A stretch of DNA of 64,000 nt from assembly GCA_946699065.1 (NCBI GenBank), contig CAMPDV010000011.1, positions 1 to 64,000 of the forward strand. The letters are read 5' to 3'. A program made the position numbers and the translations under genes. Positions 39,426-63,346 of the stretch are shown in pieces (position 1 is the first letter of the stretch; each line of letters starts with the position of its first letter). This stretch comes from Loxodes magnus (Eukaryota > Ciliophora > Karyorelictea > Loxodida > Loxodidae). Below the pieces are notes generated by a model, which was not told the DNA's origin, ran no database searches, and worked only from the letters and a program-made list of their open reading frames with translations.

Positions 39426-41056
39426 CTTATTACTTCTCAAAGCATACTCCTTAAAACTGAAATTCTATCTTCTTTTCTTACTTTGCTTCTTCACTTTTTT
39501 AAATACTTATTACTTCTCAAAGCATACTCCTTAAAACTGAAATTCTATCTTCTTTTCTTACTTTACTTCTTCACTTTTTTAAATACTTATTACTTCTCAA
39601 AGCATACTCCTTAAAACTGAACTTCTATCTTTTATTCTTACTTTGCTTCTTCACTTTTTTAAATACTTATTACTTCTCAAAGCATACTCCTTAAAACTGA
39701 AAATCTATCTTCTTTTCTTACTTTGCTTCTTCACTTTTTTAAATACTTATTACTTCTCAAAGCATACTCCTTAAAACTGAAATTCTATCTTCTTTTCTTA
39801 CTTTACTTCTTCACTTTTTTAAATACTTATTACTTCTCAAAGCATACTCCTTAAAACTGAAATTCTATCTTTTATTCTTACTTTGCTTCTTCACTTTTTT
39901 AAATACTTATTACTTCTCAAAGCATACTCCTTAAAACTGAAATTCTATCTTTTATTCTTACTTTGCTTCTTCACTTTTCTAAATACTTATTACTTCTCAA
40001 AGAATACTCCTTAAAACTGAAATTCTATCTTCTTTTCTTACTTTGCTTCTTCACTTTTTTAAATACTTATTACTTCTCAAAGCATACTCCTTAAAACTGA
40101 AATTCTATCTTTTATTCTTACTTTGCTTCTTCACTTTTTTAAATACTTATTACTTCTCAAAGCATACTCCTTAAAACTGAAATTCTATCTTCTTTTCTTA
40201 CTTTACTTCTTCACTTTTTTAAATACTTATTACTTCTCAAAGCATACTCCTTAAAACTGAAATTCTATCTTCTTTTCTTACTTTGCTTCTTCACTTTTTT
40301 AAATACTTATTACTTCTCAAAGAATACTCCTTAAAACTGAAATTCTATCTTCTTTTCTTACTTTACTTCTTCACTTTTTTAAATACTTATTACTTCTCAA
40401 AGCATACTCCTTAAAACTGAAATTCTATCTTCTTTTCTTACTTTGAAATTCTATCTTCTTCTTACTTTTACTTTTCTAAATACTTATTACTTCTCAAAGC
40501 ATACTCCTTAAAACTGAAATTCTATCTTCTTTTCTTACTTTACTTCTTCACTTTTTTAAATACTTATTACTTCTCAAAGCATACTCCTTAAAACTGAAAT
40601 TCTATCTTCTTTTCTTACTTTGCTTCTTATCTTTTCTAAATACTTATTACTTCTCAATGCATACTCCTTAAAACTGAAATTCTATCTTTTATTCTTACTT
40701 TGCTTCTTCACTTTTCTAAATACTTATTACTTCTCAAAGCATACTCCTTAAAACTGAAATTCTATCTTCTTTTCTTACTTTACTTCTTCACTTTTTTAAA
40801 TACTTATTACTTCTCAAAGCATACTCCTTAAAACTGAAATTCTATCTTCTTTTCTTACTTTGCTTCTTATCTTTTATAAATACTTATTACTTCTCAAAGC
40901 ATACTCCTTAAAACTGAAATTCTATCTTCTTTTCTTACTTTACTTCATTACTTTTTTAATATTTCAAATCATCTTATTTTTGCCACTCTTCATTTATTCG
41001 TTTTTTTTTATTTTGCAAAAAATTATATTTTTTTATTTTCTTATATATTATTTTTA

Positions 41057-41290
41057 AGCTTTATGCTTTTCGGACTGCAACTTCTTGCAGTTGTTGATCT
41101 CTACACTGCCTTCGTTGTATATCTTGGTTATCTTGTTGTATGTGAAAAGCCACTGCCATGGAGCTCCATCACTATGAGCAGCCATGTTTCACGCCCCTAC
41201 CGTGAGTGGATAATCTAGAGGAAGGCGTTTCCTTGCAAAGGTGCACTTTGACAAGGTATTCTCACTTCATTAAAGGTACTTGTTCCTAGC
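41057..41290. ncRNA. Candidate structured RNA or hairpin-rich island at the satellite edge
   Basis: Base composition changes abruptly to about half GC between two very AT-rich regions. Several inverted repeats occur in about 200 bp. A 7-bp perfect stem closes a CTTC loop (41074-41091). A 12-bp palindrome lies at 41158-41169. A TCACG/CGTGA stem lies at 41189-41205, and an AGGAA/TTCCT stem at 41219-41233. A 10-bp stem with one bulged A and a GTGCA loop spans 41231-41256. I do not recognise it as tRNA, 5S, a spliceosomal RNA, SRP or RNase P RNA. Both strands can also be read as short peptides, so a protein-coding remnant is possible. The strand is unknown. Confidence 0.35.
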
Positions 41291-42078
41291 CATAAAAATA
41301 GAAAGTATAATTCAGAAAGTTAATCTCAACTCCAACCATTTTTATAATTATCATTTCTTACTTTTCTTCATTTTGTTATTTTATTTATTTTATCATTATT
41401 TTTAAATATTTCTTCTTTGTAAAATATTTTATCCCTTTTTTTTGTTTGTCAAGATTTTTTATTCTTTTTTTTAACCCTAAGAATCAAAAAATTTCATCAC
41501 CCTAAAATCAAAAAAATTATCACAACCCAATTCAAAATAAATTAGCACAAACCAAAATCAAAAATTTCGAAACCTAATTCGGTTATTTTCAAAACCAAAA
41601 TCAAAAAATTCAAAACCAAACTCAAAAAAAATCAAAACCAATATTAAAAAAAATCAAAACCAATATAAGAAAGATCAATACCAATATAAGAAAAATCAAA
41701 ACCAATATAAAAAAATAAAACCAAAATTAAAAAAAATAAAACCAAGATTAAAAAAAATAGTATTAAAATTTTTTATTCCCATTTTTTCCAAAATCCTTTT
41801 ATATTTTAAAATTTTTTCTCAAAAAGTTTATTCCTTTCTGACCTTCTACTTATCCCGAAATCCCCAATTTGTTCCGTCCCAACTCAGCTCTATAGTGTAA
41901 AACGCTGAGTAAAAAAAGACTTTGACACTTTTTGCCTTTTTCAGGCTTCTAACTCATGAAAATTTAATCTGCTGCACATTAAATGCAGTACGCTAAATTT
42001 TTCCTATCGTTAAAAACACATAATGCAACTTAAAAATAATAACAAACGTAATAAAATTTTATAACAAATTAAAAAAAA
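41291..42078. other. AT-rich intergenic stretch with CAAAACCAA-type degenerate repeat
   Basis: No gene is supported here. From about 41450 to 41760 the plus strand is rich in A with scattered CC and shows a loose repeat of about 21 bp around atcaaaaccaatat. A 7-bp inverted repeat, ACTCAGC at 41882-41888 with GCTGAGT at 41904-41910, lies in a less AT-rich patch. Confidence 0.5.
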
Positions 42079-42365
42079 ACTTTGCTCTTACACGTAACTC
42101 AAAAAATTTTCTAAGACTATGATATAAAGATAAAAAATTTTTGGCTCTAGTACATAACTCAAAAATTTTCCTAACACTAGAAAAATTTAGAACTTTTTGA
42201 TCTAGTATATACCTCAAAAATTTTTCCAACATTGGAAAATTTAAAACTTTTCAGCTCTAGTACGTGCTTCACAAATTTTTCAGACACTATAAAAATTTAA
42301 ACTTTTTTACTCTAGTATGTACTTCAAAAATTTTTCTAAACACTAGAAAATTTGAAATTTCTCTA
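42079..42365 (+). repeat. Five degenerate 55-60-bp tandem repeats
   Basis: Copies begin near 42084, 42144, 42199, 42254 and 42309. Each has a core like ctctagtacataactcaaaa followed by atttttc, a cactag motif and a run of A and T. Copies differ at many sites, so the repeat is old compared with the 80-bp satellite. The region to 42580 beyond it is plain AT-rich sequence, probably the 3' flank of the next gene. Confidence 0.75.
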
Positions 42366-42580
42366 ACACTTGATTTTAAAATTAAATTAAAAAAATTATT
42401 AATAAAAATAACTAAGTTCAGAAAAGACTTAGAAAAAATTACGAACTTTAAAATTTTTTTAAATTTAATTGTAATTATGATATTAAGAAGAACATAATTC
42501 TAATTTAATAAAGAATTAGAAAGATTTAAATTCTTAAATGTAAATATTAAAATAGTTTAAATAGTTAAAAATCGAATAGG

Positions 42581-44953
42581 TCACTTGATGTATCTCTACT
42601 TGTCCTCAACACTCATTGTAATGTTAGTCATTACGCAATTCTAAAATTATAGACCATAGTCAACATATACTTTGCTCCAGTCATTCTAAATGTGGTGTGT
42701 TAAATTCAAACTTTCCTATTACTAGTTGTTAGTATCTACTCCATTCAATAACCTTCCTAAGTTCCATCTTCGGAAATTGTAGTCTTTTGTTTAAGAATTT
42801 CATTTTTGTGTATTACTCGATACTAACCAATTGTTGTCCTTAGATAATGATAAACTACCCACAGTTTCCGTATGACCCAAAATTGTACAGATACATTCTT
42901 CATTATTGATATTTCATATTCTTATGGTCTAGTCAAGTGATCCTGATAAGATATACTTGTTGTTGCTCGAGAATATTACCGAAAAGATATAAGGGGTGTC
43001 ACCCGATAAGACCTTGGTACAAGACAGAGTTCGAGAGTTCCATAAACGAATAGTTTTGTCAGCAGATCCAGATATGATTAAGCTTGAATCACTGGATATA
43101 GCCACAGATAATACATTACTAGTGTGACCACTCATGGTCTTACAGGTACCTGTCTTGACGTCCCATAGTCTCACCGTCTAATCATCACTTCCCGATACAA
43201 TGAACTCTGAATCACTGGATATAGCCACAGATATTACATAATATGTGTGACCTCTCATGGTCTTACAGGTACCTGTCTTGACGTTCCATAGTCTCACCGT
43301 CTTATCATAACCTCCCGATACGATGAACTCTGAATCACTGGATATAGCAACTTATGATACAGAACCTTTGTGACCACTCATGGTCTTACAGGTACCTGTC
43401 TTGACGTCCCATAGTCTCACCGTAGAATCTTCACTTCCCGATACGATGAACTCTGAATCACTGGATATAGCCACAGATAATACAGAATCTGTGTGACCAC
43501 TCATGGTCTTACAGGTACCTGTAGCTATGTTGTAGATTCTAAGAGTAGTGTCAAATGATCCAGATACTATTAAGTTAGAGTTTGGTGAGATGGCAACCGA
43601 AGTGACTGAATTTGTATGTCCAGTGAAAATATGGGGGTGTTCGGAGGAGATTGATGTTAGATTGGCGTTGGAGAGGTCGCAGTTAATGAATTTTGTGTTA
43701 CGGAGGTTAGCTGAAGTTAGGTTGGAGTTGGAGAAATTGCATGAAGTGAAGGTGGTGTCCGATAAATCAGAGTTAGATAGGTCGATATTTTCGTAATTTT
43801 GATTAGCGAATGTGAAATTCATGTAATTTAGCAAAGTCAAGGAATTGGCTGCTGCTATTTGAATTTTTGGTTGATTCTTAGCAAGATTCAAGATCTGCAA
43901 CATGTATTGCTAGTTCTTTGCTGAATTTAGTTATATTAAATCGTAAAGAATCATTTATTTTTAGCATAAGTTGATTGTGTTCAATGGATTGTTCAAAATG
44001 GAACTCTTGTCGATTTATCTGTTTTGGAATTCATTGATGATATTCTAAAGTTGCTGAGTGCTTTCTATTTTGAACTCTTAAAGTGGTTATTTTGGGATTT
44101 AAACTGCTTTTATTTTTTTTGGAACTTTAGGCTGGCTTTTTTATGAAACTTGCTGACCTTAGATTTATTTTTTTGCTTCTTCTTAAGGTTGTCTCACTTC
44201 TTATGCTTGATTTTATTTGAGTTAGTTCTATAGATCGATGCATTTTCTTATTACAACTGAGAAATCTTACATATTTGCTCTTTGTTCAGGATTCATAGAC
44301 ATAATCTCTTTGAAGACCTTGAATGAAATTTCTGAAATTGATTTTTAGTTTTGACTTGCGTCTTAGTAACTCAAAGACTTTACTCTATTCATTTCATTCT
44401 ACATGCTTTCAAATCCTTTTACTACCTCATTCAATGCATTTATATTACGATTGAATTCCTAACTGGTTACCATCTTTTAAGTTTTTATTTGCTGATACTT
44501 TTCATTGAGAGCATTTATCTTTCTTAAGACTTACTCAATTTCATTTACGATCTTTTTTCTCTCATCTATTTCACTTTAACATAGTATCCACGTAACTTAT
44601 TTTACTATTTCATTGAAGATTTTTTGGAAATCTACACATGTTTTCTTGATGCTTAGGATATATGCCTTTTAGATATTGGCTTGTCCCGATAAGTCTTAAA
44701 TCAATTAAATCAGATTGGCTTAATGTTCAAACTTATTTAACTACTACTTGAAATGATCCTTTATGTCAAAATTCTTTAGATTTTTTTCTTAAATATTTAC
44801 TTTTTTGTTGTGAATCTGACAATTAATTGTATGAGCTTCTTGTAACTTTTAAAGACATTTAGTGCAACTAACACATCCACATTATAATTCTTTTGGCTAT
44901 CTTTTATTTTAGTCGAAAACTTTTTTACATTTTTAACAGAAGGTTAAATCCAT
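42581..44953 (-). CDS. RING-like, coiled-coil, pentapeptide-repeat and WD40 protein
   Basis: The frame runs from ATG at 44953 using TAA and TAG as Gln throughout. Near the N-terminus are paired Cys/His ligands (C6, C9, C25, C27, C30, C33, C45, H48) spaced like a RING finger. A long Gln/Lys/Glu-rich, probably coiled-coil region follows to about residue 370. Pentapeptide repeats of the A(N/D)LxX type cover about 380-435, and WD40 repeats start at about 442. Four blades carry RLWD or RLWN with TGG. Blade six reads DQTIRI, then TGA (codon 680), then NI, where WD40 proteins have Trp. A seventh blade follows, with a second TGA at codon 718 and FRRWNL. The frame ends at TGA 42583-42581, where coding composition stops. 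Read through, it is 790 residues with seven blades. Stopped at the first TGA, it is 679 residues with under six. The architecture suggests a ubiquitin-ligase-like scaffold, which is inference. No introns are needed. Confidence 0.85.
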
Positions 44954-47690
44954 TACTTATAATTTACTTAAAATAACTCTCTGAATAAATACCCAATATT
45001 ACAATGAAAATAAAATTGATAAAAAATAAATATTAATTAAAAATAAGAATTTATTAAAATTAGTAATTGTTTTTGATTAAAAAAAGATGCTAAAGAAAAT
45101 TAAAGATATTGATAACTATTAGATAAAAATATTAAACGCGAACAATAAAATTTTGCATAAATAATAAAATTACATATCAAAATCTATTTTTTAATCAAAC
45201 TAAAAAAAAATTTTTAATACAATTTTTAAAAAATATATTATTTTAAAATAAGTTATAAATTTTAATTAAAATTTTATAACTTATTTTTAAATAAATACAA
45301 TTAAAAATAATTTGCTTTAATATTAAAAAAATTATTAAAAACAAAAACTACTAATGATAAAATTAAAAAAAATTATAATAATAAAAATATAGTTTAAATC
45401 ATAATTAAAAAATTTATTTTTTTTTAAATGTAAAAACAAAACATATATTAATTAAAATCAAATTAATTTTTTATTATTTTAAAAGAATGAAAATATATAA
45501 GAAATGTATGTAATATAAAATTTAATTATTAAAAAAAAATCATATTATTTCAAGCTTAAAAATCAAAAATAAATGTTTTTATTAGTATATAACGTAAATT
45601 ATTTAAAAAAAATTAGAATAAAAAATCTTTATTCATCTGCAAAAAACTTGTATACTTAAACCTAAATAAAAAAATGTTTTAATACATAAAAAAATTTATT
45701 TAATACTGGAAATTATTTAATATCAAACAATAATGAAATAAATTATCTAAAATTAAATAGTAAAATTTATTTGTTTAAAAATTCAAATAATATTTAAATT
45801 TATTAGATATAATTTATTTAAAAAAATAGAGAAATAAACTAATATACAATTTGAAAAAAATATTCATTATATTAATAAAATTAAAACATCCTAAAAAGTA
45901 AACTCAAAATTAAATAATTTAAAAAAAATTAATTAATATTAAAAGAAAAAATAAAACAATAGATAAAAAAATTATGCTAATAAAATAAAAATGAAAATCA
46001 TAAATAAAAATTTACTTAAAAAAATATTAAAAAAAATAAAAAAGTGTAAAACTATAATAAAAATAGATATTCTAAAAATAAGAAAAATAATTCAATATGA
46101 TTAAAAATGATAAAAGAAGTAAACAAAAAAAAGAAAATTTAATTTATCTGAATGAAATTAAAAGTTTTAATTAAAATAAGAAAAACATATAAGGCTAATA
46201 AAGCCATATAATAATTAATTAAAAAAACAAATAATAATATTTATTAGCTTTATAAGCATTCTAAATATCTTCTTGGTATTTTATAAAATTCTACTAAGTA
46301 TGTTTCATATTTTATCTTTTATTAATTTTCTTAATTGTATTGCTTAATTAATTTTTCAAAAAAACTGAGCATAGTTATTTTACAATTAAATTAGATTTTT
46401 TTCAATTAAATCGGAATTATAAATTTCTACATTTATTCTATATCAGAATGCTATTTGAATCTATTAATATAAATTCCTCATTTTATATAGATTTTTTTGT
46501 TTTAATTAATAAAATCCTAAAATTTAGCATAGAAATTTAGAATAATTTATTATTAAGTTTATTTTAAGATATATTGGAAGAAAATATAAAAATGAGATTC
46601 ATTTTATTTGGTTTTCTTAATTATCTAATTTAACTTGTATGTTTTATTTACAACTAACATTACCAATTAATATATTTTATTTATATACCTTATTTAAGCT
46701 ACGAAACAAAGTGTATGAGGATTATAATGATAAAATAAAGCAGACGATATTTGCTATCTGTTTTAAGACTAGCTTTCATAAGAAAATAATTAAATCTACA
46801 TAGACTTAAATAAATAAAGATAACTAAAATTATAGAATTATAAATAATCAGATTGATAAATAAATATTAAGCTTACAAATAGTAGCTTAAAATAATTAAA
46901 TTCATAAAGTTATATTTATACCTTATTTATTTTTTATATTTTAGCTACTTTTAAATGTGATAATTATTTATTATGGAAGGCTTGTGATTGGCTTAATGAT
47001 TTATTTTATTTTTAAATTTTAAGAACATAATAATTTTTAGTTATATAAGGGAAATTTATTTATCTAAATTTATTAATACTATTTAGATAAAACTTTGATT
47101 AAATTATTTTAAAAGTTTATATTCCTGCGAGATTGATGTTATTAATAGTGAAAATGAATAATAATTTAACAACTAAAATTGAAATTTCAAGATCTTTTTG
47201 AAGAATGGAAAGTAAAGAAAGTAAGAAAAGAGGATCAAATAGTGAAAATATAAAGAAAATGTTTATAAGCAAGATAAAAATAGATAATTAGGTCATATTT
47301 ATACTCTAAAATTTATTAGAGTTATTTGGCAACAAATAATAAATAAAGCAAAATCTTTATTTTATTAACTTAATTTATTACTTTAAAGTTTCTTTTCGAT
47401 ATTACGAAAATACTTAGTAATATTTATTTTATTTTATTTCTTTATTATGCACTGATAGATGTATGCTTCGCTACTAAATTAACGTTTCGATATTAAAGTA
47501 AAAAAAGATCCTTAATATTACAATTTAATTATCTATCAAGCACTTTAATATTTTAATTTAATACTAGAGTTAATTTTCAAATAATTTCAATTATTCTTTT
47601 ATTATTTAAAGTAACTCTTTTAATAACTTACGTAGTTATTTAAAATTACTCCAAACCATATAAATTCACTTTGGTATTTAACATGTATAA
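44954..47690. other. Very AT-rich intergenic region
   Basis: This 2.7-kb stretch is dominated by A and T runs. From about 46560 to 47130 some frames look faintly protein-like, with a membrane-like segment and a YYG motif, but nothing recognisable was supported. I see no RNA gene or clear repeat. Confidence 0.5.
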
Positions 47691-48459
47691 ATGAAAATTT
47701 CCTTCTTATTGATATTGGCTATTATAGGCTTTTCTCAAAGTCACAGAATAGATAAGTTCTTTAAGTAAAAGCAAAGCTATATTCAAGAAAGACTTAGTAT
47801 CAAATCTATGAGAGATACAAATGGAAATGTTTATGAAGTAGGATTTTCATAAATTAGTTCTAATAATTAAGATTGCTGAATTAGGAAAGTAGATAGTTAA
47901 GAAAATGAACTGTACAAAACTTTCTTATATTCAAGCCCAGATGATTGTAGAGGTTTTACATTGATTTTAGACAGCAATGATAGACCATATGCAGCATTTT
48001 CGATTGATGGAGGCTTATATGATGCAGGATATATCACCAAAAAATCAGTTATAACTGGTGCTTTTTCAGGATCTATTTTTGATATTTAGGGTTCAGGATG
48101 AGGTCCTAAAGTTTCAGTTCTAGCTGGATTAAGAATTGATAACGGATTTATCGAACAAGCTACATTTTTAAGAGCTTAACTTTCTACAGGAAAAGCGAAT
48201 TAGTACTTAGTTTAAGAAATAAGTTTCTGTGCAGATTAAGTTTCAAGTTTACTCTTAGAGTTGGTATAAATATTTCGATAAAAATTCTTCAAATAATAAG
48301 TTCATAGGTTACCCAGAAGCAGACTTGATAAAAGTAAGTACGGAAGGATTTTTCAGACATTATATTCATTTAGACAGAAATATGACGATAATTACATAGG
48401 CTTCAGTTAAAGATCTTTTAACATGTTAAATTTTCTTTTAGGTAGAAGTTAGGAAATGA
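47691..48459 (+). CDS. Secreted protein of unknown function, probably with one 25-nt intron
   Basis: The ATG at 47691 opens a frame starting MKISFLLILAIIGFSQS, a typical signal peptide, so the product should enter the secretory pathway. TAA and TAG fall at Gln-compatible positions. Two in-frame TGA codons (47877-47879 and 48099-48101) fall in DC-x-IRKVD and GSG-x-GPKVSV contexts, where Trp would fit. The middle part, with DDCRGFTLILDSNDRPYAAF, SIDGG and KVSVLAGLRIDNG, resembles secreted beta-propeller-like repeat proteins from memory only. The frame shifts near 48210, and removing a GT-AG segment of 25 nt restores a coding frame that ends at TGA 48457-48459 (247 residues). If TGA is only a stop in this organism, the locus is a pseudogene. 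No partner gene is adjacent. Confidence 0.6.
48210..48234 (+). other. Candidate 25-nt intron
   Basis: The segment starts with GT (gtttaagaaa) and ends with CAG (ctgtgcag). Its length of 25 nt leaves remainder one on division by three, which is what is needed to join the coding frames on each side. Introns of this size are known in ciliates such as Paramecium. A plain one-base insertion would look the same in DNA. Confidence 0.4.
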
Positions 48460-50280
48460 ACTTAATTTGTTTTAATTAAATCCTATCTTTTAAGTACAAA
48501 TTTAAATAAAAAGCCCAAGTTAATAATTAAATATTGCTTAAGGAATATAATTTAAATTTAAAGATTCACTAAATGTTTATATATCTTAAGTATTTGTACT
48601 CTATGGCTTATTTGTAAAATGATTATTAATTTGATATATTTAATTTATATATTATAGTCAAAATAACCTTAACTTAATAATAATTATGCTAGTAGCCTTC
48701 ATTTTAATAAGCTATATCTCTTATGATTAAACTAATAGTATAAGAGTATTAGCCTTAATTATTCTTAGTATAATATCTTTATATTTTAATTAAGGAAATT
48801 ATGCAAAGGTAAGTAGGATTTGTTTTAATATTGCTATTATGGTATTTTTGTATAATTAACTAAGCTTCTTTAGTTACTATCTTTAATTCCTAAGAAAGAT
48901 AGTAGTATTTAATTTATTGTTGAATATAATTAGATTTAAGTAATAAATAGTATAATATTAATAATATAACTAGCTTTGGAAATAGATAATAAAAATAAGG
49001 CTTAATATTAATTTAATATTATAGCTACTAATTTAATAGTGTCTAGCTAATTTCTAAAATTAGTACTTACATTGATATTAGAATCTAAGAGCTTGTGCTT
49101 ATAAGATAGTAAATAGTTATAAGTTAAGTTTTAAAGATTCTAATAAAGAGAATAATGAAATAGTTTATTGAATATACTTGCATTTATATTAAATTCTTAG
49201 AGTTATCTAATATTATCTAACCTTTAGAAACTACTACCTATTTAGAATTTATTTGCTTAATTGCTTCATTTTTATTTAGAATGTAATTCAATTCTTTTAA
49301 GCATGTACCTCATTAAGAAAATCTACTCTTTACATTTATTTAAGAATTTTAAATTTAAAAGAGGGAAATTAAAAATATCAAGCTATAATACAATTAGGAT
49401 CATCCTATTTAGATAAAAATTAGAAAATAGCTAAACTTAATTCTTAATGACTCTTATATTTTATCCTTTTAGCCTTAAATAGACAAAAAGTATATTTAAC
49501 TATGCATTATACTAGAATTTATAAAGCAAAATAATAACTTAAAAGATTTAAATTAATAAATTATAGCAATAGGAATAAACAAGCTTTAAGATTTATTATA
49601 AATTAACTAAGAAGATTAAGAAATTATTATACTTTATAAAATATAAACTAATCAATCAACTAAAGCTAGAGTTATGAATCATTATATATTAGTGCCTACT
49701 TCATTAGGTCTTTTACTAAATTATATTTAATTCTAAGCTTATATCATTTTAAACTTTAAGCATCTCTTTAATTAAAATTTTGATTCATCATTTCTTTGCA
49801 AATAACTTTGAAGCATTTTTAATTAGAAGATATTAATAATCTATTTGCAAATATTTAATACCTAAAGCAGAATCTAATCTAGATTTAAATAAATTAGATA
49901 TTAGTGCTTTTTTTAATTTTATTCAAATTCAAAACTATGTAGATAAGACAACAATCTTTCCAAATATTTGGTAAATAAAAGATATATATAAAGTTAACTA
50001 TTTTTAGAGGTATTTTATAAGTGAATAGAGTCATTTCATCCCCAAATTCTTAGTATAAATATACATTTTTTAATTACTATTTAATCTTATAATTTTTTAT
50101 TCTCATCACTTTATTCACTTTAATTTTAAGAACGCCTAGTTTTCTTTAAACTATATCTAAAAGTTAAATAGTTTATTTAAAATATGACAACAAAAAGATT
50201 TATTAATCATTTAATAGTTATGTTCGCAATATATTTATTTTAACTTTACATTTTAATGAGAATCATAATATATTAGAAGA
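48460..50280. other. AT-rich sequence without a supported gene
   Basis: Long frames without TGA exist, for example 48686-49075 on the plus strand starting MLVAFILISY. They have low-complexity hydrophobic content and no motif I recognise, and frames of this length are expected by chance in DNA this AT-rich. No RNA gene was seen. Confidence 0.5.
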
Positions 50281-50670
50281 ATAAATAAACGTTTAATAGA
50301 TGGTACAAATAAATAGGTTTATAAAGATTTTAGATGATAAATTATTAGGTAATATTAACTAATAGATTAAAGAAATGTATTATATATTTATTCCCATGAA
50401 ACACATATATAAATAGACTTAATTTTTACTAATATTTAATTATTTAAAATATTAGTAATGATATACCAATAACCAGAATATTTAATTCAATCATATTTAA
50501 AAAATAATTTAAATTTTGTAATTTAGATTTAACTTAAATAAGAGATAAAACAGTATCAAATTAGTTGAAATAAATATTAATGAATCTTATAATAGATATC
50601 TTATGAATAATTTATAAAGATTATTAAATAAAAGTATTTCCTGTATTTTAAAATTAATGTAAGGTATCTG
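50281..50670 (+). mobile_element. LINE-like endonuclease relic
   Basis: One plus-strand frame with TAA and TAG as Gln contains, in order, a D-F-R stretch, then SHETHIQIDLIFTN at 50392-50433, then SWNKYQWILQQISYEQF at about 50563-50613. The first two resemble the C-terminal part of an L1-type apurinic endonuclease (D-x2-R, then a Ser/Arg-Ile-Asp motif). The last resembles the W-x-L-N-x2-L-L linker before the reverse transcriptase. The TGA codons at 50566 and 50581 are at Trp-like positions. No reverse transcriptase motif such as YADD was found downstream, so the copy is truncated or badly decayed. The similarity is short and the call is tentative. Confidence 0.35.
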
Positions 50671-52432
50671 AGTTTTCATTGAAAAGATTAAAATTAAAAT
50701 TTTAAATAAAAGTAATGAAATGTTTCAGATACATTGAAATTATATCTTTCATAATAGCATTTTTACTTTAATAATAAAAATCACTTTTTCTTAATAAAAA
50801 GAAGCTATAAAATTGCTTAATCTATTATCTATAGCTTAAAATGTAAAAATAATCTTTATTTTTTAAATAAAAACAATTTATAATAAACGTCTGGTATAAT
50901 TATGATTTGGTGGTTATCTCTTTTTTAATATAAACTTTTTGTAATAAGATAAAGCACTTTATCTATTTATAACTCTTTTACAAAAAATAGAATTTATAAA
51001 TGATATGCTTAATTAAATAAATTTATTTCTAAACTTTAATCAATAGAATTATCATTATAAGGTACATTGATAACTTTGATAGACTTTGAAACTAAAATTA
51101 GATAAAACTAAGAAATATCTTTAATTATAGATACAATTTAAATTAATAAAATCTTAAATATAACTAGCAAGCATTGTCTAATAATTTGTAAATGAAAGAG
51201 ATATTTATCTCATATAGTTAACGAATAGAAATATATAATTATTATTTTTTATTTAAAATACAACTTAGATTATATAATTTAATTTAGCTTTCCTTTATTA
51301 AACTTACATTTAATTAGATTTAAAATTATTAAATATCATATTAACTATTTATTACAATTAGAATATAATATAGTTATAAGGTTTTAAAATAATTAGTTCT
51401 AGTAAAAGATTAAATAATCTTGCTTTTTATAAAGCTATTAAATTTTTAGCTGAAATAATAGTTAAATGTAATTTTAAAAGTTAGTTAGATGTTTATTAGT
51501 AGATATAATAATTGCATAATTGTTTATTTTAAATAAAATATAATAATAAAGCTATAAATCTCCTAACTAAATAATTAATAGCTTAATATTATATTATATC
51601 TAATATTTTAATTCTTTCTAAGCTTTTATTATATTTATTCTACTATAAAAAACTTAATCTATCAAACTGAAAAAACTAAAAGTAAAAGGAAATTAATGAT
51701 TTAAAGTCTATTTGTTTCATAATTTTAAGAAATAGTGTGATATTAAAATAAACTAAGCTCTAAATAATTATTAATAAGTTATTAATTAATTTAATAAGCT
51801 TAAGCTTTAGATATCTAGATATATAACTTAAACATTAAACAAATTTAATTATATTAATTAATACACTTATATTTAGAACTTCACTTTAGTGAAATATCTG
51901 CTTAAATAAGAGAAACAGGCTTTCTTTCTTATTTAAAGTGAATTTTAATTAATGAATAGAATACTTTAATAAGATTAAATAAATTTGAAATTTAGTTCTT
52001 AAGAATCGTTAAAAGTAAGCAGTTGAAGTATTTTCTATATAATAATTTAATTATTAAAATATCCATTTCAGAAATGTTTAGCAGCTTAATGATATACTCT
52101 AATAGAATAAGAAACTTAATAATTATTAAATTAGCAATATTATTATATTAGCATTTAAAAGCTAATTAAGGTTATTCATTTAATTTTAAAGAAAAAGAAA
52201 AATATAAGGATGTTGAAACTTTTTAGAGTAAAATAGCTTTTAGATATAAGTGCTATCAATTAAAAGTTTTATTTAATATAACTATTTATTTACTAACTTG
52301 ATAAGCATAAAGGTTTAAGTTTTTAAGATAAAGAATGAATGCTTATTATAATAAAAACTATTTATAAGCAACCTTTAATTAATTAGTTTCTAAGTTAGAA
52401 TATTTAAAGAAACTAATATCCTATTAATAACA
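50671..52432. other. AT-rich sequence, possible further LINE decay
   Basis: No motif-supported gene was found. Plus-strand frames remain open for long stretches and are Leu/Ile/Asn/Gln-rich, which the composition alone can produce. It may include the degraded downstream part of the LINE-like element. Confidence 0.4.
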
Positions 52433-52499
52433 GACAGTGTGGCCGAGTGGTCTAAGGCGCTAGTCTTTTGGGGCGTGGGCTCAAATCCCACCGCTGTCA
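52433..52499 (+). tRNA. tRNA-Leu-like gene lacking its anticodon arm (probable pseudogene)
   Basis: The acceptor stem pairs GACAGTG with CGCTGTC and is followed by A as discriminator. TGGCCGAGTGGTCTAAGGC gives a Leu-type D arm and A box. GTGGG-CTCAAAT-CCCAC gives a normal T arm, apart from C where T54 is usual. Between the D stem and the T stem only a CTAG (52460-52463) plus a variable arm TCTTTTGGGGC remain. A normal tRNA-Leu has about 17 nt of anticodon stem and loop here. The gap looks like a roughly 13-nt deletion across a CTAG microhomology of the two stem strands. It is 67 nt long and cannot decode. The Leu assignment rests on the D arm and the long variable-arm remnant. Confidence 0.8.
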
Positions 52500-52500
52500 C

Positions 52501-52504
52501 TTTT
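52501..52504 (+). terminator. RNA polymerase III T-tract
   Basis: Four T residues follow the discriminator base by one nucleotide, the usual minimal terminator for a tRNA gene. Its presence suggests that transcription signals were intact when the anticodon arm was lost. Confidence 0.5.
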
Positions 52505-54119
52505 AATAAAAAATAGAGCATTAAAATGATAATAATAAATAAGCTATCAAGCATAAGTAATAACTTACATAAAATAGTATCATCATATAAGCAAACCTCT
52601 ATTATTTATTAAGAACATAAAATGAAACTTTATGATTAAATTTACTTAACTTAAATACTTAGATTATGGATCTTCTATAGAAAAAATAGATATTAGTTAT
52701 ATTAGTAGTATTAAATAAATGAAGAAAAATAAGTTTAATAATAAAATAATGCTATTATTTCTAAAATTGCTAGATAATTAAAAATAACATTATTATCTAT
52801 ATAGCTCTCTAACTATTTCTCTTTAAGAGAATATTATTTTAAATTAAATGGCTATTCTATCTATAAAAATACATTATAGTTATGCATTATTGACAATTTT
52901 TTAATTTTTAATAGTTAAATTTGTTAAAATATATAAATACAAATGTATTTTAAATTTATTACGAAATAAGTTAAAAACTTTATAAAATAATTTAGAGTTT
53001 CAAAAAATAAGAAACAAAGTATTCAAATTATAATAAATTTTTTTCGTTAAATAAATAATTAAGGAATTTATTGAATAATTAAAGTAAATTATAAATTTTA
53101 GTAAGAGAATATAAAAACGTGAACTGATTGTATTTTCTTACAATAATGCTACTTAAACCACTAGATTCATTCTAAAATTCAAAAATTTTAAAATTAAAGC
53201 ATATTTAACTTGATTTTTTATATTTATCTTTATAGAAGAAATTTTAAATTTTACCTCTAAAATTTATTTTTTTATTTACTAAGATTAATGAAGTTTCAAA
53301 TTATTCTTTAATATCTAGAATGCTAAATTTTAATTAATTAAAATACTTTTATACAACTAATTTCAATTATGGTTTGCCAAGCATTCTATTTTTATTTATT
53401 GATCAATTAAAATTGAAATAATTGTAAAGCTAAGGTATATTTCATAAGAGGCATTTATTAAAAATTATTTTAGGATAATTAACTTATTTATTTATTTTTA
53501 CTAAGATAAAAAATAAGAAAATTAGCAAAATAACATTTAGTTGTTATCTTTTAAAGTATCTCTTATTATTTTAACCTTATCTTACTAAATAGATTAATAT
53601 AGCTCTATTATTTTCTATAGAGTTAAAATTCTCTTATTGCTTTTTAGATATATTTAAGTTTAAGTTAACAGAATAATTAACTAATTTAAACTACTTAATA
53701 AAGTTAACTTTAAACCTTGCATTATGATGCTTAAGCATTTTCTGAATTAAAAAATAATATATTCTTTAATTATTTTAATTATATAAAATAATAGCTTCTG
53801 ATAAAGTTTAAATAAAGATTGTAAGTATCCTTTATATAAAACTCTAAAATTAATTTTTTTTAGCATTAAAATTAAAGTAAGTATCTTTAATTAAGTTATA
53901 TTTGAAAAACTCTTTTGCTTAAATGCAGAACATTAGTATAGTTATATCAATCAAGTATATTACTTTAATCTTTTACGTTGTATTTTTTATCTCTAAAGTA
54001 TATATTGAATCATGAAAAAGTTATTAGGCAAGTCTAATCAAGTTTTATAACTATATTTGTATTCAATTATCTTTGTAATATTTTCATTATATCATACTTT
54101 TAAATGAATTGAATCAATA
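52505..54119. other. AT-rich sequence without a supported gene
   Basis: This is simple AT-rich sequence with no recognisable motif, RNA gene or tandem repeat. Open frames are not informative at this composition. Confidence 0.5.
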
Positions 54120-54420
54120 TAAATAAGACAAACTTTTGACTTCTTAATAAAAGCAGTCAGACAATCAAATTAAATGCTTCTGACACTTAGGTTATAAAAA
54201 TGAATGCTAAAAGTATCAAGAAAAGGAATACTATAAAAGCAAAACTCAAAAAAAAAATTTTAATTGAAAGCTTATTGAGTCAAATATAAATTCAAGAATA
54301 TAAACAATTTGATCCTGTATAAATAATTTACATAAAAAATTAAATGAGATAAATTATAATATGCAACGTAGCATAAATACTTAAAACTGTAAAAGATTTA
54401 ATAATCATTAAATAAAAATT
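54120..54420 (+). mobile_element. Possible zinc-knuckle relic of a gag-like element
   Basis: A plus-strand stretch around 54175-54207 has Cys, Gly and Cys at roughly the spacing of a degenerate CCHC zinc knuckle. Lys- and Glu-rich sequence with many TAA/TAG Gln codons follows. It may be an old, badly eroded fragment related to the larger fossil on the opposite strand near 56700. The match is short and could be chance. Confidence 0.2.
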
Positions 54421-54628
54421 TTAAAATTATAGAAAAAAAATAAAAAAATAAAAACATAAAAACTAAAATAATCTTTCTTCGAGAATGTAACATATATCTC
54501 AAAAAAAAAATCTTCTGTAAAAAAATAGATAAAATTTTCTATTAAATTTGCTCAGGATCTATTAATTAAAAAATAAAATTAAAAAATAATAAAATACTTA
54601 CGAAAAAAAATTACTTTTCTTTGTTTTT

Positions 54629-54754
54629 ATGTAAGATAAAAATAGTTAGATTTAAATTTTATTTAATTTTATGTAAGATAAAAATAGTTAGATTTAAATT
54701 TTATTTAATTTTATGTAAGATAAAAATAATTAGATTTAAATTTTATTTACTATA
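54629..54754 (+). repeat. Three tandem copies of a 42-bp unit
   Basis: The unit beginning atgtaagataaaaatagtta occurs at 54629, 54671 and 54713, an exact period of 42 bp. Copies one and two are identical. The third has one substitution near its middle and diverges at its end. The sequence from here to about 55070 is T-rich with no gene. Confidence 0.9.
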
Positions 54755-55069
54755 TTTTATTAATTTCTTATAAGTTTTAATCAATAAATTTCTTTTTCTT
54801 TTTTTGATTTTTTTTTGCTAACATATTTTATGTATAATTTTTTTTTCAGTAAAAAATATTTAAATTTTAAATTATTTTTTTCTAATTTTTTGATCTTTTC
54901 TTTCATTTTTTTTTTATTTCTTATTATTTTTTCATTAAGTAATATTTTTCTTGTATTCATTTGTTACTTCAGATTATTGCATTAATAAGTCAAAAATGAC
55001 AATAAAATTTTTCACTTTTTTTTTAAGTTATTTAATTAAGAAAAAATTAATTTTTTTATTAAATTCTTG

Positions 55070-58060
55070 ACAAGTGGCTCAGTTAGTTTTTAAATAGTAA
55101 AATGCGAACATAACAAGCTAAAAGATATCTAGTAAATTTTTTCCATCTTTTTATAACTCTTGCGTTCATGACATAATTGTAAGCAGTAGTTGAAAATATG
55201 AAGAAAATTCAGTTTTACTTTTCTATTTTTCCGAGACTTTCTTTAGTTTTATCTATGTTTCTTAAATATTCGCAAAAGTTAGGTCCTTCATCATCAAGAT
55301 TGTTATCAACTGCGTCTTTTGACTAATTTGTCAGCTTCCACTGTTCAAGCTGTTATTATCAGAGTTTATATTAGGTCTTATATCTTAAATTAATTTAGCG
55401 AGTCAGAAAGAGTGACATGCCTATGTTGCTTTTTTAGATTGGTTTCTTTACTTGGAACCTAAACTTTCTTACGTTCCTCTTTTTCTAGATAAATCCACCT
55501 TCAAGAGCTTAAGTTTTTTTATTTTTAACATAAGATCTTATATATTCTTAGTAGATATTTTTTATGGTAATAGTTTATTTATAAAAATCAACCATTATAT
55601 ATCTTTTAAAAATAAAATAATTATTATTTATTTTTTTTTATGCAGCCGATTACACATCTGCCGCTTATAGTAAACTTATATTTCCATTCTTCTCTCCATT
55701 TGTTTTGGTCCTACTGTATTATGCATCCATGTCCTATTAACAGCACTTTTATTTTTCTTGGTTTCCTTTTTTCTGTATATTTCTCCTTCTTTATTGCATT
55801 ATAGTTTTTCTTGTTTTTGTCTATAGTTCTTCCAATATTGCTTTGAAATTTTTAAAATTTCTTCTTTCTGGAGGTTAATACAATTTTTATGGTCTAATCT
55901 ATGCTAATCTGGCCAGAAGGATTAAAATCCGTTACATTCTGATGGGAGATGGACTTCGCTTACTTCCTCGGTTTTTCCTCCAAGTTTGATTTCATTCAGC
56001 GTGAATAATTTCTGCAGCTTTGTCTACTTCTAGTAATTCTATTGCGTTTAGGACTCCTAGTTCCTTGGAGCAGGAAAGAATCCCTTTCTGAATTCCGGTA
56101 TCTTTTTTTATACAATATAATAAGTTAATATATTATAAATTATTTACTTAATGATATGATCACTTAATTTTAATTAAGTTTAAGATAATATAAATTAAAG
56201 ATATTTAACTAATAGAATATTTAATTTTTATAATTTTATAATATTTAACAAAAGCATTATAAGTAAAATAAAAAGCTATTTATTTATTTTTAATTATAAA
56301 ATTATTCATTTTAATTTAATTTCTAATTTTTATCATTCTATTCCTTTAAATTTATGTTTTCTTATATTTTTAAGCTATAATTAAAAGGATTAATATCTTT
56401 TTATCTGATAATTTAAATTTAATACATTTTTAATAATTTTTAATAATTTTAGCAAAATAAAGAGATTAAGATTTAAATTTAATTTGAAGTTAATTGTAAA
56501 TTTAAGTTTATTCTCAGCTCTTCATTTATAAGTTTTCCTTTTTACTTACAGAACTTCTCTTGTTTTCTTCAAAATAATACGAATCTTAAAACTCTTCTAT
56601 TACTAATTTAATAATTTTATCTTAATCCTATTATTTTATAAGTCCAGATTTTTCATCTTGTTCTTAATTATTCTCTTTTCTTTTAGTCTAAATTGTAAAC
56701 AATTTTGTACTTTATGTCCTGGCCTCTTACAATATCAACATCTAATTATTTTCTGATAGGGAATATAATTTATCGTAGGTTGTAGTTCCACATCCATCAA
56801 ATAATTTATCGATATCTTTTAGAGGAGTATGCTTTCCATCAGCTCTTCGAATTAATTGAATTTTGCTTCTAATTAAACCATTTTGATATTCGCTGTCTAT
56901 TTATTTTCAGTTTTTTTTGTAGATTTGTATTAGTCATCAAGTATTCAATTTTTATTTCTAGTTCTTATACTTGCATTAAAAGTTAAAAATTTTCTTTTTG
57001 CATTATTTTGAGATCTTAAAGTATTTTTACTGATCGTAGTTTGACAAAAATGAATCCTTTTAAGAAGAAACTTTTTCAAGAAATTCCCCATTTTATTATA
57101 TTCCTGTAAATAATTAATAGCTCATTAAGGTCTTGCTTAGATACAAATGCTTAAAAATTTTAAATTAAAATTAATGAAATATCTCTCTTTTTACTCGCAT
57201 GTAATTAACATCAAATTTAGATGACTTAAAAAATCGGTTAAACGTTAATTAAAATTGTCATCTTATTACTAATTTTCATCCATTAAACAAATTTTTTAAA
57301 TAGTTAAAGAAAACAACTCATAGAATTATTTTTATATTTTTATATTTTTATTTATTATTAGAGAATTTCTATTACTCTGTTAGTGTAATTTTTACTAAGT
57401 AAAAAAATAATAACTCCATTATTAGTTAAATGTAATTTTAAAAATTCTTTATATGTGTTTTTAGAAAATGTTAGTTGCATGCACTCATCAAAATTGTAAA
57501 TTTATTCTTAGTTTGCAGATTTATTTATTTGAAGGCACTAATAAATAAGTTTTAGTGTTCTTAAATGTTCAATCTAACTCTCCTAGTTTTTCGTTAATTT
57601 AAAGATCTTTTCTCTTTTGGTTTAGGTTATTGGTACTATTAATCAATTAATTTACTTATCTAAACACAAAATTTGACTTTGGATAATAGGATTAGCAATT
57701 TATTAACTTCCTTTTTATGCTTTTTTATATAGTTAATTTCTGTTTTATTATAATTTTATTTCATTAAAATGTTTGCGAAAAAAATTATAAACATCTTCAA
57801 TCAACTTTCAATAGTATCTGATTTCTCTATAATTATTAGCTTTAATGACCTCCTTCCCTCTTAGCTATTTTTCTTTTAGCCTCCTCTTAAAAACCTTCAG
57901 TTAATTAACTTTATGAAAGAGCTAGAATCTTTCATTTTCTCTCTTCTTCTTAAATTCAAATTTTTTCTACCCCTTTCAGCATTTAGAAGTGTTTGCCTCT
58001 TTAAATTATCTATCTACAGTCATAATTTTATTATCTTTTAGAGTCTATTTTTAACTAAAA
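55070..58060 (-). mobile_element. Fossil of a gag-like retroelement
   Basis: The minus strand keeps long stretches of protein-like sequence in ciliate code, with many TAA and TAG Gln codons. A CCHC zinc knuckle (C-x2-C-x4-H-x4-C) lies at 56699-56740, flanked by basic residues, as in gag nucleocapsid regions. The upstream part (about 57000-58060) is Lys- and Gln-rich. The part at about 55450-56110 is less AT-rich and carries further Cys/His-containing sequence. No reverse transcriptase, integrase or terminal repeats were recognised, so the family cannot be settled and an LTR or non-LTR origin is open. It is broken, with several interruptions, and looks old. The short plus-strand frame at 55452-55670 is antisense to it. 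Confidence 0.45.
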
Positions 58061-60107
58061 TATTTTAATAATTTTTCCTTCAAAAATAAGTCACCAGATT
58101 TAGTAATTTCTATAAAGATGTCTTTAAGGAATTATAAAATCGGAAAATTCTTTTATGGCAAAGATTATAAAAAGCTAATTCTGTACGACTAAAATTATAT
58201 AAATTCGAACTTTATAAAAAAATAAAATCCCTAAGATTGACAAATACATACAAATTCTCATAAAAAATTGCTTAAAAAAGATAGCAATTAAAAAATATAA
58301 TTTAAGAAAGTAACTTAATAATGATTGTGCAAAAAATAAATAAGAAGATGAAATTAGAAGAGAGAGAAGAAAATGCGAGGACACATTTAGATCTAATATA
58401 GAAGAAACAAAAGAACAGGATCAGGAAGAATTAACTATAGGCTGATTATAAACATACATTAACTCTTACTTAACATAATTCACAGAAAATAAAACTATAA
58501 GTAGTGCAATTATGTCCCAATACTCAAAGTAATGAAATTTTTTTATCTTATTTTTATTATTTTTTTATTTCGAATTATTCTAAACAAATTTCTACTAATT
58601 TTCTTAAATAACATATTAAGTCTATTAAAAAAATCTAAGTAGTTTTTTAATTTTATTAATAAATGAATATACTCAAGCGTTCTATTCTATTATTCATATT
58701 TAAATAAATATCCATCTATTAAAAACCATTATTATAAGGAGTTTAAAATTAATTATACTAAAATATAAAAATAACTACTAACTATATGTTGGATATTTTA
58801 AGTTAAGTTTACTTTTTATTTTTTATAAGTATTTCTTGTTAATTTTTATTTACATTAAAAATATTTTTAAATAAAAATGGTTATCATAAATTAGCATATG
58901 TCAATGTAATAAATTAAGTTGGAGATTCTTTTACTGTTTGCAATTACATTTGTTCGATATTTTTACTTTGTCGGAAATTTTTTACTTCTAACTATTTTGT
59001 TTTTATAAGTAAAATTTTAATTCGACAATTTTTGAAAATCTTATTTTAATAATTATTTAAATTACAAAATAAAATTTTAGTTTTGCTATTTTGTACTAAC
59101 ATATAAATACAATTGTTTTTCGATCATTCAGTTATGTTTAAATTAAAAGCAAATTACAAGGATCTATAAATTTGGACGGATTTCAACTTAAAATATTTTT
59201 ATAATTAGTTCGAAATTAAATCAAATTAAACGATTAAATTCTTCTCTATCATCAATTTCTAATAATCTATTTTAATTAGTTGGATCTGCTTATCTTTATG
59301 GAAATAAAAAAGGAAATTACATATTTACTATATTTTATGTTTAATAAATTGCTTATTAATTTAAAAAATATAATTATTCTTATTAAGATAAAAAATTTTA
59401 TTTTACTTTTATAAATTTTTTATTTCAACTGAATTAGTAATAATTGTTTTAACTGCAAAGTAATCAAAATTTATACCATTTTCTTTATATTTAGATTATT
59501 TTATTTGATTCTCTAAATATTATGTACTAAATTTTAATAAATTTGATTATTTTTTCTGTTAAAATAAAAAATTAAGAACTTTAGTTATTATTTTAATTTA
59601 ACATTTTCGCTAATTTTTTTTAATTTTGTTAATATTTAATTTGCTTAATTTCTTTTATCTGATAATTATTATTTTTAATTCTATTAACTATATTTAGTTT
59701 AAAATGTTAATAAAACTCTAAATCTATTTAATTTTTTTGAATATTAGAAATTTGAATGTCTTCTTTCTGCCTAAAAATTTTAATATTTTATTATTTATTA
59801 AATTTCTTCATTATTCATTCAAAAAATACATTAACCTATTAATTAATAACTATTACTTTTAACTATTACTTTTAAGGTTTATAAATTTCTAGTTAAGCAC
59901 GCAATCTTAAAATTATTTTTTTTATTTATCAATAGCTTCATTATTCTAATTTATATCAATTGATATCAATTTTATAAGTTTATTAATCTTTTCCTGCAAT
60001 AAGTTGTATATCTTCTTTTTCGTATAGATTACATGGCAAATTTATTGATATGGTAAATAAATTTTTATTAACTATTAAAATTTCCCCCTTTTTTTTATTT
60101 ATTTTAA
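58061..60107. other. AT-rich sequence with no supported gene
   Basis: The stretch is mostly A and T homopolymer mixtures. A minus-strand frame at 58175-58384 encodes only Leu/Phe/Ile-rich low-complexity sequence and is not convincing. Some minus-strand sequence at about 59870-60100 may continue the cysteine-rich frame that follows, if TGA is sense. Confidence 0.45.
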
Positions 60108-60467
60108 TCATCTTAAAAATTATTTATAATTAAGCAACTCTTCTAGCAACTAATAATTACTCAATTTAATTTAAATCTCCTAATTCTAAAAAAATTTCAA
60201 AAAAGGATTATTTTCTTTTCTTTTTCGAATTTAAAAAGAAGCTTTATTAATAATTTTTCGAACTTTATTTATATTATTATCGTAATTGCAAATCATTTTT
60301 GTTTTACATAATTTGCAATTTTTATTTTTAAACTCTTTTTAACATCGTAAGCAAAATAAATTTTTAAAATTTCGAACTTTTATCTGGGTTTCTTCACAAC
60401 CCAGACATTTATAAAGGTTTTAATTTTCTGAAGTACTAGTGAAAAATAAAAATCTAGAAGCATACAT
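60108..60467 (-). CDS. Small cysteine-rich, zinc-ribbon-like protein
   Basis: A 119-codon frame from ATG 60467 to TGA 60110-60108 (TAA and TAG as Gln) has Cys residues at 21, 24, 39, 42, 51, 54 and 60. This gives three CxxC pairs plus one Cys within 40 residues. The pattern LYKCLGC, FCLRCQK, CKLCKTKMIC is typical of a zinc-binding domain. A Lys-rich tail follows. It could be a small host zinc protein or the N-terminal zinc module of a decayed transposase. Protein-like sequence continues past the TGA, so the true end depends on the meaning of TGA. The start is uncertain, since the first 15 residues are not distinctive. An 8-bp inverted repeat (TCTGGGTT/AACCCAGA, 60383-60405) lies inside it. 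Confidence 0.45.
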
Positions 60468-60904
60468 AAATTTTTGCTTTCAAAATTTTTCATTTTAAAC
60501 TTTAAAATTTTATTATTAATTTATTTTTAATTTATTTAATGTATCATTGCTTACTTATTTATTTATTTATTTATTCTTTCGTTTAAATATTATTAAAATC
60601 AATAACTGTTGACTCATTTTTATTTTTTTATTATAACTTATTTTGATAATTGTTTAATTAAAATAACTAATCTAAATAATTTCCTAACTTAATTTCAATG
60701 CAAATAAATAATTAAATAATTATTTATTATTATTCTTATGAACACTCTTTTTTAATACTTTTAACTAAAAATTCTATTTTTGCCTTAAATCTAGGCAGAT
60801 ATTAAAACTTGTTCTAAATAGTCAGTTCACAAGCTTTTACAATTTAAATTATTTTATATTTTTTAAATTTAAATAAAAAGATAAATTATTATATTATTTA
60901 AATT
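60468..60904. other. AT-rich spacer
   Basis: Simple AT-rich sequence, including a run of TTTA repeats at about 60555-60580. No gene or RNA is supported. Confidence 0.5.
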
Positions 60905-61177
60905 TTATTTAAATAGGGTGTCCTTACCTTTTAAGGTCGCGAGAAGAATTTCCCAGATATGAACTGACTGTGAAGCAACCTTTTCTAAATGTTGGACCGT
61001 ATTAATCTCTTCATCATCATGGATTGGAAATCTACCTGTAATCGCCTGTTGGCGTCCTGTTTTTTGGAGATTTTGAACCGCATCCTTGCCCACAAATAGA
61101 AGAGAGAAATATTGAAGATTAATGAGACTTATAATTAACATTTTTAAAGAGATTCGCCCTATTGTAGGGCTACTCAC
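60905..61177 (-). CDS. Unknown protein with standard-code-like codon use
   Basis: A frame of 90 codons starts at GTG (61177) or at an internal ATG (codon 13) and ends at TAA. It lies in an island far richer in GC than its surroundings. About seven or eight Gln codons are present and all are CAA or CAG, none TAA or TAG, unlike the WD40 gene, where TAA and TAG dominate. Codons such as CGC, GCG and CTC are also out of style. The protein has no recognised domain. Its C-terminal half (ITGRFPIHDDEEINTVQHL, then SVHIWEILLATLKGKD) looks like soluble helical sequence. It may be foreign DNA, for example of bacterial origin, or an RNA-coding island with a chance frame. If TAA is Gln here, the frame would run on into AT-rich sequence. 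Confidence 0.4.
   Translation of the reverse strand: MSSPTIGRISLKMLIISLINLQYFSLLFVGKDAVQNLQKTGRQQAITGRFPIHDDEEINTVQHLEKVASQSVHIWEILLATLKGKDTLFK
61156..61170. repeat. Perfect hairpin GCCCTA-TTG-TAGGGC
   Basis: A 6-bp perfect stem with a 3-nt loop sits at the 5' end of the minus-strand GC-richer ORF. It could be an RNA hairpin or a cruciform-prone site. It follows no T-tract that would mark a simple terminator on the minus strand. Confidence 0.5.
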
Positions 61178-61377
61178 TCTATAATAACATTTTTTTTAAT
61201 ATCAAAAGCTTTATAACGAAGAATTTATATCCTTATTATAATAAATTTTATATTTATTTATTAATTATAACTATTCTTAGTTTTAAATCAAAGAATCTTA
61301 TTAAAAAACCTTATTTTTAAATTATAAACAAAATAAGACATAAATAAATAAATAATAAATAAATAAAAATGAATATA

Positions 61378-61770
61378 GAGCGCGTAGTTCCTCATTGGCG
61401 CGCAGCTCTTTCAATATTAATATTTAATATTAAGAAAAATGTTCTCATGTTTTTTGTTAAAATTCTAGAAATTCAATGAGTCATGTTAGCTTCTCCAAAT
61501 GGGGGAATCTTCTTATTAAAAATTATTCTTAAATCTTGAGTCGAATGATTCAGTCTTCTTAAATAAGATCCAAATAAGAATTAGTTTTTAGGTCATTAAG
61601 GCCCGTCAGTCAAACTTTCATACTGCTAGAGAGAACCCTTGGGGTAAGTTAGGCATGTCTCAACGGAACTTATCCATCCTTCCCGTTGTGGCATCTAGTT
61701 CGAGATTACTCGCAGTGCAGTATGCACTGCACCAGATTACCTACTAATTTATCTGACGCGGCCAACATCC
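61378..61770. other. GC-richer island with several hairpins, function unknown
   Basis: The island is bounded by AT-rich sequence on both sides. It opens with GAGCGCG and, 14 nt on, CGCGCAGCTC, which nearly complement each other. It contains CAACGG/CCGTTG (61661-61688), an 8-bp perfect stem GCAGTGCA-GTA-TGCACTGC (61712-61730) and CAGAT/ATCTG near 61733-61756. All three minus-strand frames are mostly free of ciliate stops, and no protein family was recognised. It could be a structured RNA gene, or part of the same foreign segment as the ORF at 60905-61177. Confidence 0.35.
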
Positions 61771-62479
61771 ATTTTATATATTTAATAATGATTTAAAATC
61801 TACTGTTATTAATAATTAACTAAAATCAATCATTACTTATAATTAAGGCTTATTCTATGCTATATTGGTTATAGAAATTTAGTAAATAAGATAAAATTGA
61901 AGAAATTAAATATTTAAACTAACTAGAAATGAAATGCTTACAACATCACTATTTAGTTTACAGATTTTAAATAGTACTATTCTATTTTATTTTTCAAATA
62001 AGTTTTAATATTTTTATTTTGTCTATTAAAGTGCTTCAACTAACTATTTATAAATTTATAGTATTATTTTATATTTTTTCTAAATGAAGATGAGAAAATA
62101 TATTGTGTAATTATAAAAGTAATTTATAAGCAAGCTAAATAATTAATTTATATTCGATAAGTAATGTCATAACTAGATTTTTATTTGACTAAAACTAAGA
62201 AGTAAATTACTTGATCTCACTTCAGCCTAATATTAATCAATAGAAGTGCTTGCTTTTTCTAAAATTTTTTTATTTAAACTCACAATAAAGTTATTTTAAT
62301 TAACTTAGGAAGATTTTCAATAAAATCAAGAAGCCTAATTAATTCAAACCAATTATGAATCCATAAACCTTTTATTATAATATTTCTATCAATTATGTCA
62401 GATTATTAAACTTGGCAAACTTAAAAAATAGATCCATAAACTTAAATTAAAAAATAAATTAAGCAACAGTTATCTAAAA
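61771..62479. other. AT-rich sequence, perhaps the decayed 3' end of the dehydrogenase pseudogene
   Basis: No independent gene is supported. Minus-strand sequence next to 62480 may hold eroded C-terminal codons of the neighbouring alcohol dehydrogenase-like gene, but I could not align it with confidence. Confidence 0.4.
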
Positions 62480-63125: not shown

Positions 63126-63346
63126 AAAATATAATTAATCTATTTTTATTTAGAATTAAAATATTCAAATTTTATCTTTTTATCTTTTTATCTTTTTGAG
63201 TTATTAATTTAAATTTAATTTCGCTTTATTTTAATTTATAATGATATTAGATTAATTATAATTAATATATTTTATTATATCACTTTCTCCTTTTTATAGA
63301 AAACTAACATTTATTATATCTACTATTGATGTTATTTTTGGAGTTA
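63126..63346. other. AT-rich spacer
   Basis: Short AT-rich stretch with a tctttttatcttttta run at about 63175-63196. Nothing else was seen. Confidence 0.5.

Follow-up and report, generated by a model that had tools for sequence, protein, structure and literature searches.

Evidence that a Loxodes magnus locus is read with the karyorelict nuclear code, in which UGA is both tryptophan and stop

The question raised by this locus is whether TAA, TAG, and TGA can all be sense codons in its genes. An earlier note, made from the sequence, had proposed that TAA and TAG encode Gln, and TGA Trp as well as stop, with TGG-to-TGA decay in pseudogenes as the alternative explanation for in-frame TGAs. The window, i.e. 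the whole stretch of 64,000 nucleotides that was analyzed, consists of 41 kb of an 80-bp satellite followed by sparse genes, and this layout fits the Loxodes magnus MAC assembly, which is described in the available part of PMC11441545 as tandem-repeat-rich and 706 Mbp in size; the assembly analyzed here has 705,730,643 bases. The satellite itself, at the start of contig C11 (window positions 1-40959), is present in ~500 copies and has a strong strand asymmetry.

The longer of the two genes in Table 1 extends past the part that was quoted in the earlier note. Its product has a Cys-rich, RING-like N terminus (assigned by eye), then a middle part, and then WD40 blades, for which Pfam gives a WD40 match at 1e-69 in seven stretches; seven blades can also be counted by eye. 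TAA and TAG fall throughout the frame, as had been claimed, with 34 and 15 occurrences, respectively, compared with means of 27.8 and 12.8 in 500 dinucleotide shuffles of 42583-44953 (one base beyond the gene), i.e. at the level expected by chance. TGA, by contrast, occurs only twice within the gene, against a shuffle mean of 17.3 and minimum of 7, with none of the 500 shuffles giving two or fewer; the remaining five frames of the same stretch contain from 17 to 30 TGAs each. Thus, TAA and TAG appear to be free sense codons in the WD40 gene, whereas TGA is tolerated only rarely.

Table 1. Coordinates of the genes and in-frame TGA codons considered in the window
Feature	Position	Strand	Evidence
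WD40 protein-coding gene, 790 codons in one frame	42584-44953	minus	Reading frame and Pfam
In-frame TGA, probably read as Trp (RI-W-NI, blade six)	42914-42916	minus	TGA in 5/5 family members compared
Second in-frame TGA, variable loop	42800-42802	minus	Aligned codon in five copies: TGA 3, TAT (Tyr) 1, TTA (Leu) 1
Closing TGA, putative stop of the WD40 gene	42581-42583	minus	Inferred from the letters of the sequence
Copy of a small protein gene from a large repeated family; start signal-peptide-like by eye	47691-48459	plus	Closure needs an assumed intron
In-frame TGA, DC-x-IRKVD	47877-47879	plus	TGA in 17/21 copies
In-frame TGA, GSG-x-GPK	48099-48101	plus	TGA 7, GGA (Gly) 13 among 21 copies

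The rarity of in-frame TGA in this gene is also what would be expected of a ciliate using code 6, in which TAA and TAG encode Gln and TGA is only a stop, the internal TGAs then being the result of TGG-to-TGA decay in pseudogenes. The constraint beyond the two TGAs argues against this reading. The first, which had been reported correctly in the RI-x-NI motif of blade six, is at the WD40 Trp site, where blades two to five read LWD, LWN, LWD, and LWN, and blade one IYN. The window gene was compared with four relatives of its 3' part (L139-L142), chosen from 150 scored places, which align with it in the frame of the gene with gap lengths that are multiples of three; at the RI-x-NI site there is no TGG counterpart among these five sequences. 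In the same five sequences dN/dS falls from 0.41 ahead of the first TGA to 0.33 past it and 0.26 past the second, compared with 1.01 and 0.76 when the family DNA is read in the two wrong frames. Translation across both TGAs thus appears to be under selection, as judged from only five sequences, and since constraint persists past both, the WD40 gene is not a pseudogene; for this gene the decay alternative can be rejected. Elsewhere in the assembly, contigs C1503, C119, C9, C1832, and C6957, and others, carry long arrays of WD40 repeats with a spacing of 126 bases, some with open frames of >2000 codons.

A second line of evidence on codon meaning comes from protein kinase domains, 70 of which were read (30 + 40 loci) from 136 listed, with near-duplicates kept and with TAA, TAG, and TGA all masked before alignment; one of 67 TGAs was dropped because it fell in a thin column. 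The mean Trp frequency in the columns of the remaining 66 TGAs is 57.8%, with Trp the modal residue in 50, compared with 58.8% for 109 TGGs, with Trp modal in 83. Trp is not the commonest residue in the columns of 16 of the TGAs, and likewise of 26 of the TGGs. In the three columns with >40% Trp, TGG occurs 39, 14, and 30 times and TGA 23, 18, and 9 times. Judged from these alignments, TGA falls on conserved Trp sites as strongly as does TGG. Scattered decay in pseudogenes would not make TGA follow Trp columns in the manner of TGG and, taken with the constraint on the WD40 gene, this makes code 6 with decay a very improbable explanation. The columns of TAA (338 codons) and TAG (161) are enriched in Gln 4.3- and 4.8-fold, respectively, compared with 6.2-fold for CAA and 4.3-fold for CAG. 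The commonest modal residue in the columns of all four codons is Lys or Glu, because Gln varies in these domains.

The TGAs of the second window gene, a putative secreted-protein gene, are of a different type. Both of those reported earlier are present, but their proposed status as Trp positions is not borne out. Among the window copy and 20 paralogs, the first site has TGA in 17, GGA in two, and CGA and TTA in one each; the second has GGA in 13, TGA in seven, and GAG in one, the Glu coming from one frameshifted copy. TGG is absent from both sites in all 21 copies, and the residue at the second is mostly Gly; on this comparison, the secreted-family sites are not conserved-Trp positions. The paralogs were read from 20 of the 149 other places among 150 scored (the window's own included), which came from 277 first-look candidates. 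The numbers of TGA, TAA, and TAG codons in 47691-48209 are no different from those in shuffles, with 112, 207, and 69 of 500, respectively, at or below the observed count.

Nor is there visible constraint on the secreted family. Five of the 21 copies have a frameshifted appearance, and with these dropped, the other 16 have an overall dN/dS of 0.93 in frame, the two wrong frames giving 0.68 and 0.64. Before the first TGA the in-frame value is 0.66, and after it 1.06 (wrong frames 0.62 and 0.59 before; 0.71 and 0.66 after). Loss of constraint past the first TGA fits a stop there, although before it the values for the wrong frames are much the same as the in-frame one. The apparent frameshifts and the lack of in-frame constraint count in favor of code 6 with decay. 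A narrower proposal is that the code is as set out below, with UGA as Trp or stop, and that the window copy belongs to a repeated family but is itself dead, its two TGAs being uninformative on the code. The in-frame dN/dS of 0.93, which is not below that of other frames and which is the reason for considering the copy possibly non-functional, favors this proposal, as do the predominance of GGA at the second site and the presence of the family at 150 scored places in the genome. Against it, diversifying selection would likewise give a ratio near 1, and the frame is open under NCBI table 27 and can be closed via a short intron, after which it ends in TGA. This closure, at 48457-48459, requires that a GT-AG intron, either 19 or 25 nt long, be assumed within 48210-48258, a region in which four candidates of these lengths can be recognized. 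Very short introns are usual in Loxodes magnus, with a mode of 17 nt and 93% being ≤25 nt according to the passages available from PMC11441545. On balance, we consider it reasonably probable that the window copy is dead. Its TGAs could be either sense codons or the result of decay, and as evidence on the code they are weak.

In at least seven other contigs (C2670, C1358, C884, C112, C165, C4880, and C1778), relatives of the WD40 and secreted-protein genes form divergent pairs with ~5 kb between them, at several places close to a contig end; they are perhaps a subtelomeric gene-pair family.

The earlier note also placed a TGA at the Trp position of a dehydrogenase pseudogene, for which we found no support. 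Pfam detects no dehydrogenase in six frames of 45000-47700, 48400-54900, 54900-58700, and 60000-64000, nor in three frames of 40900-42582 (minus) and 58300-60100 (plus), nor in the reading frames of the two genes. A fragment at approximately 62640-62885 (minus), outside the region 42581-48459 with which the earlier note was concerned, recalls by eye a medium-chain dehydrogenase. Searches of 62580-63200 (minus) against the PDB with phmmer, however, found no dehydrogenase, returning 0, 0, and 1 matches, with E 1.9 for the single one. When 62640-62885 (minus) was searched against the genome, 68 matches including itself were obtained; it is a fragment of a repeated gene, without a profile hit.

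With respect to termination, the assembly has two eRF1 copies (L115 and L116) of 436 codons each, with 13 and 15 TAA codons, 7 and 6 TAG codons, and no internal TGA. Both have the motif RAQNIKS, which corresponds to TASNIKS in human eRF1; a third match (L114) is Pelota-like by eye. Both copies close with TGA, with another in-frame TGA two codons later. The two window genes also end in TGA, so that all of the few gene ends looked at, as read from the sequence, have this codon. These ends bear on the Condylostoma-type code, table 28, in which TAA, TAG, and TGA are all possible stops as well as sense codons. Table 28 likewise has UAR as Gln and UGA as Trp (PMC4967479, in the part available), and so shares the sense meanings found here. 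However, the eRF1 copies and window genes close with TGA, albeit that only a few ends were examined, there is no shortage of TAA or TAG in the WD40 gene, and UGA is the sole stop in Loxodes according to the accessible text of PMC11441545; we therefore regard a table 28 code as highly unlikely.

The earlier note suggested a search for a tRNA-Trp with anticodon UCA. A tRNA-Trp pattern search gave 129 matches; all 100 of the matches listed have CCA, and none has UCA, although the pattern leaves divergent forms uncovered. What is present instead is a tRNA-Trp(CCA) with a 4-bp anticodon stem. Of these 100, contig C148 accounts for 72, C67 for 26, and C110 for two. In two C148 copies the 27-43 pair is broken, as seen in Rfam alignments with cmscan non-pair marks, and the other 70 listed copies on this contig, the array on which was reached through a BLAST search (40 rows), are identical in their letters over the matched stretch. 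The mismatch at 27-43 is U-C on C148 and A-C on C67, as read from the matched letters, while the C110 copies are paired at 27-43 and have a 5-bp anticodon stem. A broken top anticodon-stem pair is shared with the 4-bp-stem tRNA-Trp(CCA) of Blastocrithidia nonstop and Condylostoma magnum; the particular mismatches, and the presence of the two listed 5-bp C110 copies, differ. Such a 4-bp-stem tRNA-Trp(CCA) has been found in Blepharisma and Loxodes (PMC13092985, as far as the part available goes).

The tRNA-Trp(CCA) genes form head-to-tail arrays at C148 157310-173051, with a period of ~241 bases, and on C67 over at least 482309-487030, with a period of ~187 bases. It is conceivable, but in our view improbable, that there are two tRNA-Trp(CCA) pools, the 4-bp arrays (C148 and C67) reading UGA and UGG and the few 5-bp copies (C110) reading only UGG, the balance of which tunes UGA readthrough near gene ends. 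A first Trp pattern had given five matches: four with CCA, of which three are on C110 and the other is on C7736, and a fifth that ARAGORN calls Arg; the C7736 match was not called a tRNA. Three tRNA-like genes on C110 (L109 706-778, L109 1481-1553, and L138 13-85) have nearly identical acceptor, D, and T arms and differ in their anticodon arms, ARAGORN calling them Met(CAT), Trp(CCA), and Arg(CCT). Among 169 matches to a Gln-type pattern, a UUA anticodon loop is present in all 21 of those shown with letters, these being tRNA-like and candidates for Gln. ARAGORN, applied to 16 of 30 tRNA loci, called tRNA-Lys(TTT) at the match in all 16. Within the window, a tRNA match at 52433-52499 (plus; 43.9 bits), which ARAGORN does not call and whose anticodon arm is incomplete, is a truncated tRNA, by eye perhaps of Leu type.

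The kinase test, the WD40 constraint past the TGAs, the eRF1 genes, and the tRNAs together sustain the assignment with which the earlier note began. The window is almost certainly karyorelict ciliate nuclear DNA read with NCBI table 27, in which UAA and UAG encode Gln, and UGA encodes Trp within coding sequence and is a stop near the mRNA end. This is the published code of Loxodes magnus, in which UGA is the sole stop and is also Trp where the poly(A) tail is sufficiently distant (PMC11441545, in the part available); the reassignment was described in Parduczia and Condylostoma in 2016 (PMC4967479, likewise in part). We found no departure from table 27, nor any difference from the code as given for Loxodes magnus and Parduczia sp. 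in the available parts of these two sources. With regard to mechanism, the literature suggests that a shortened anticodon stem would let tRNA-Trp(CCA) read UGA, and that termination at UGA would win only near the poly(A) tail.

As a discovery, these results add little to the published code. Through them, a nuclear code that lacks a dedicated stop codon has been recovered independently from raw sequence, and they distinguish the types of evidence that bear on it: conserved kinase columns and constraint past a TGA hold, while TGAs in a repeated family on which no constraint is visible do not.
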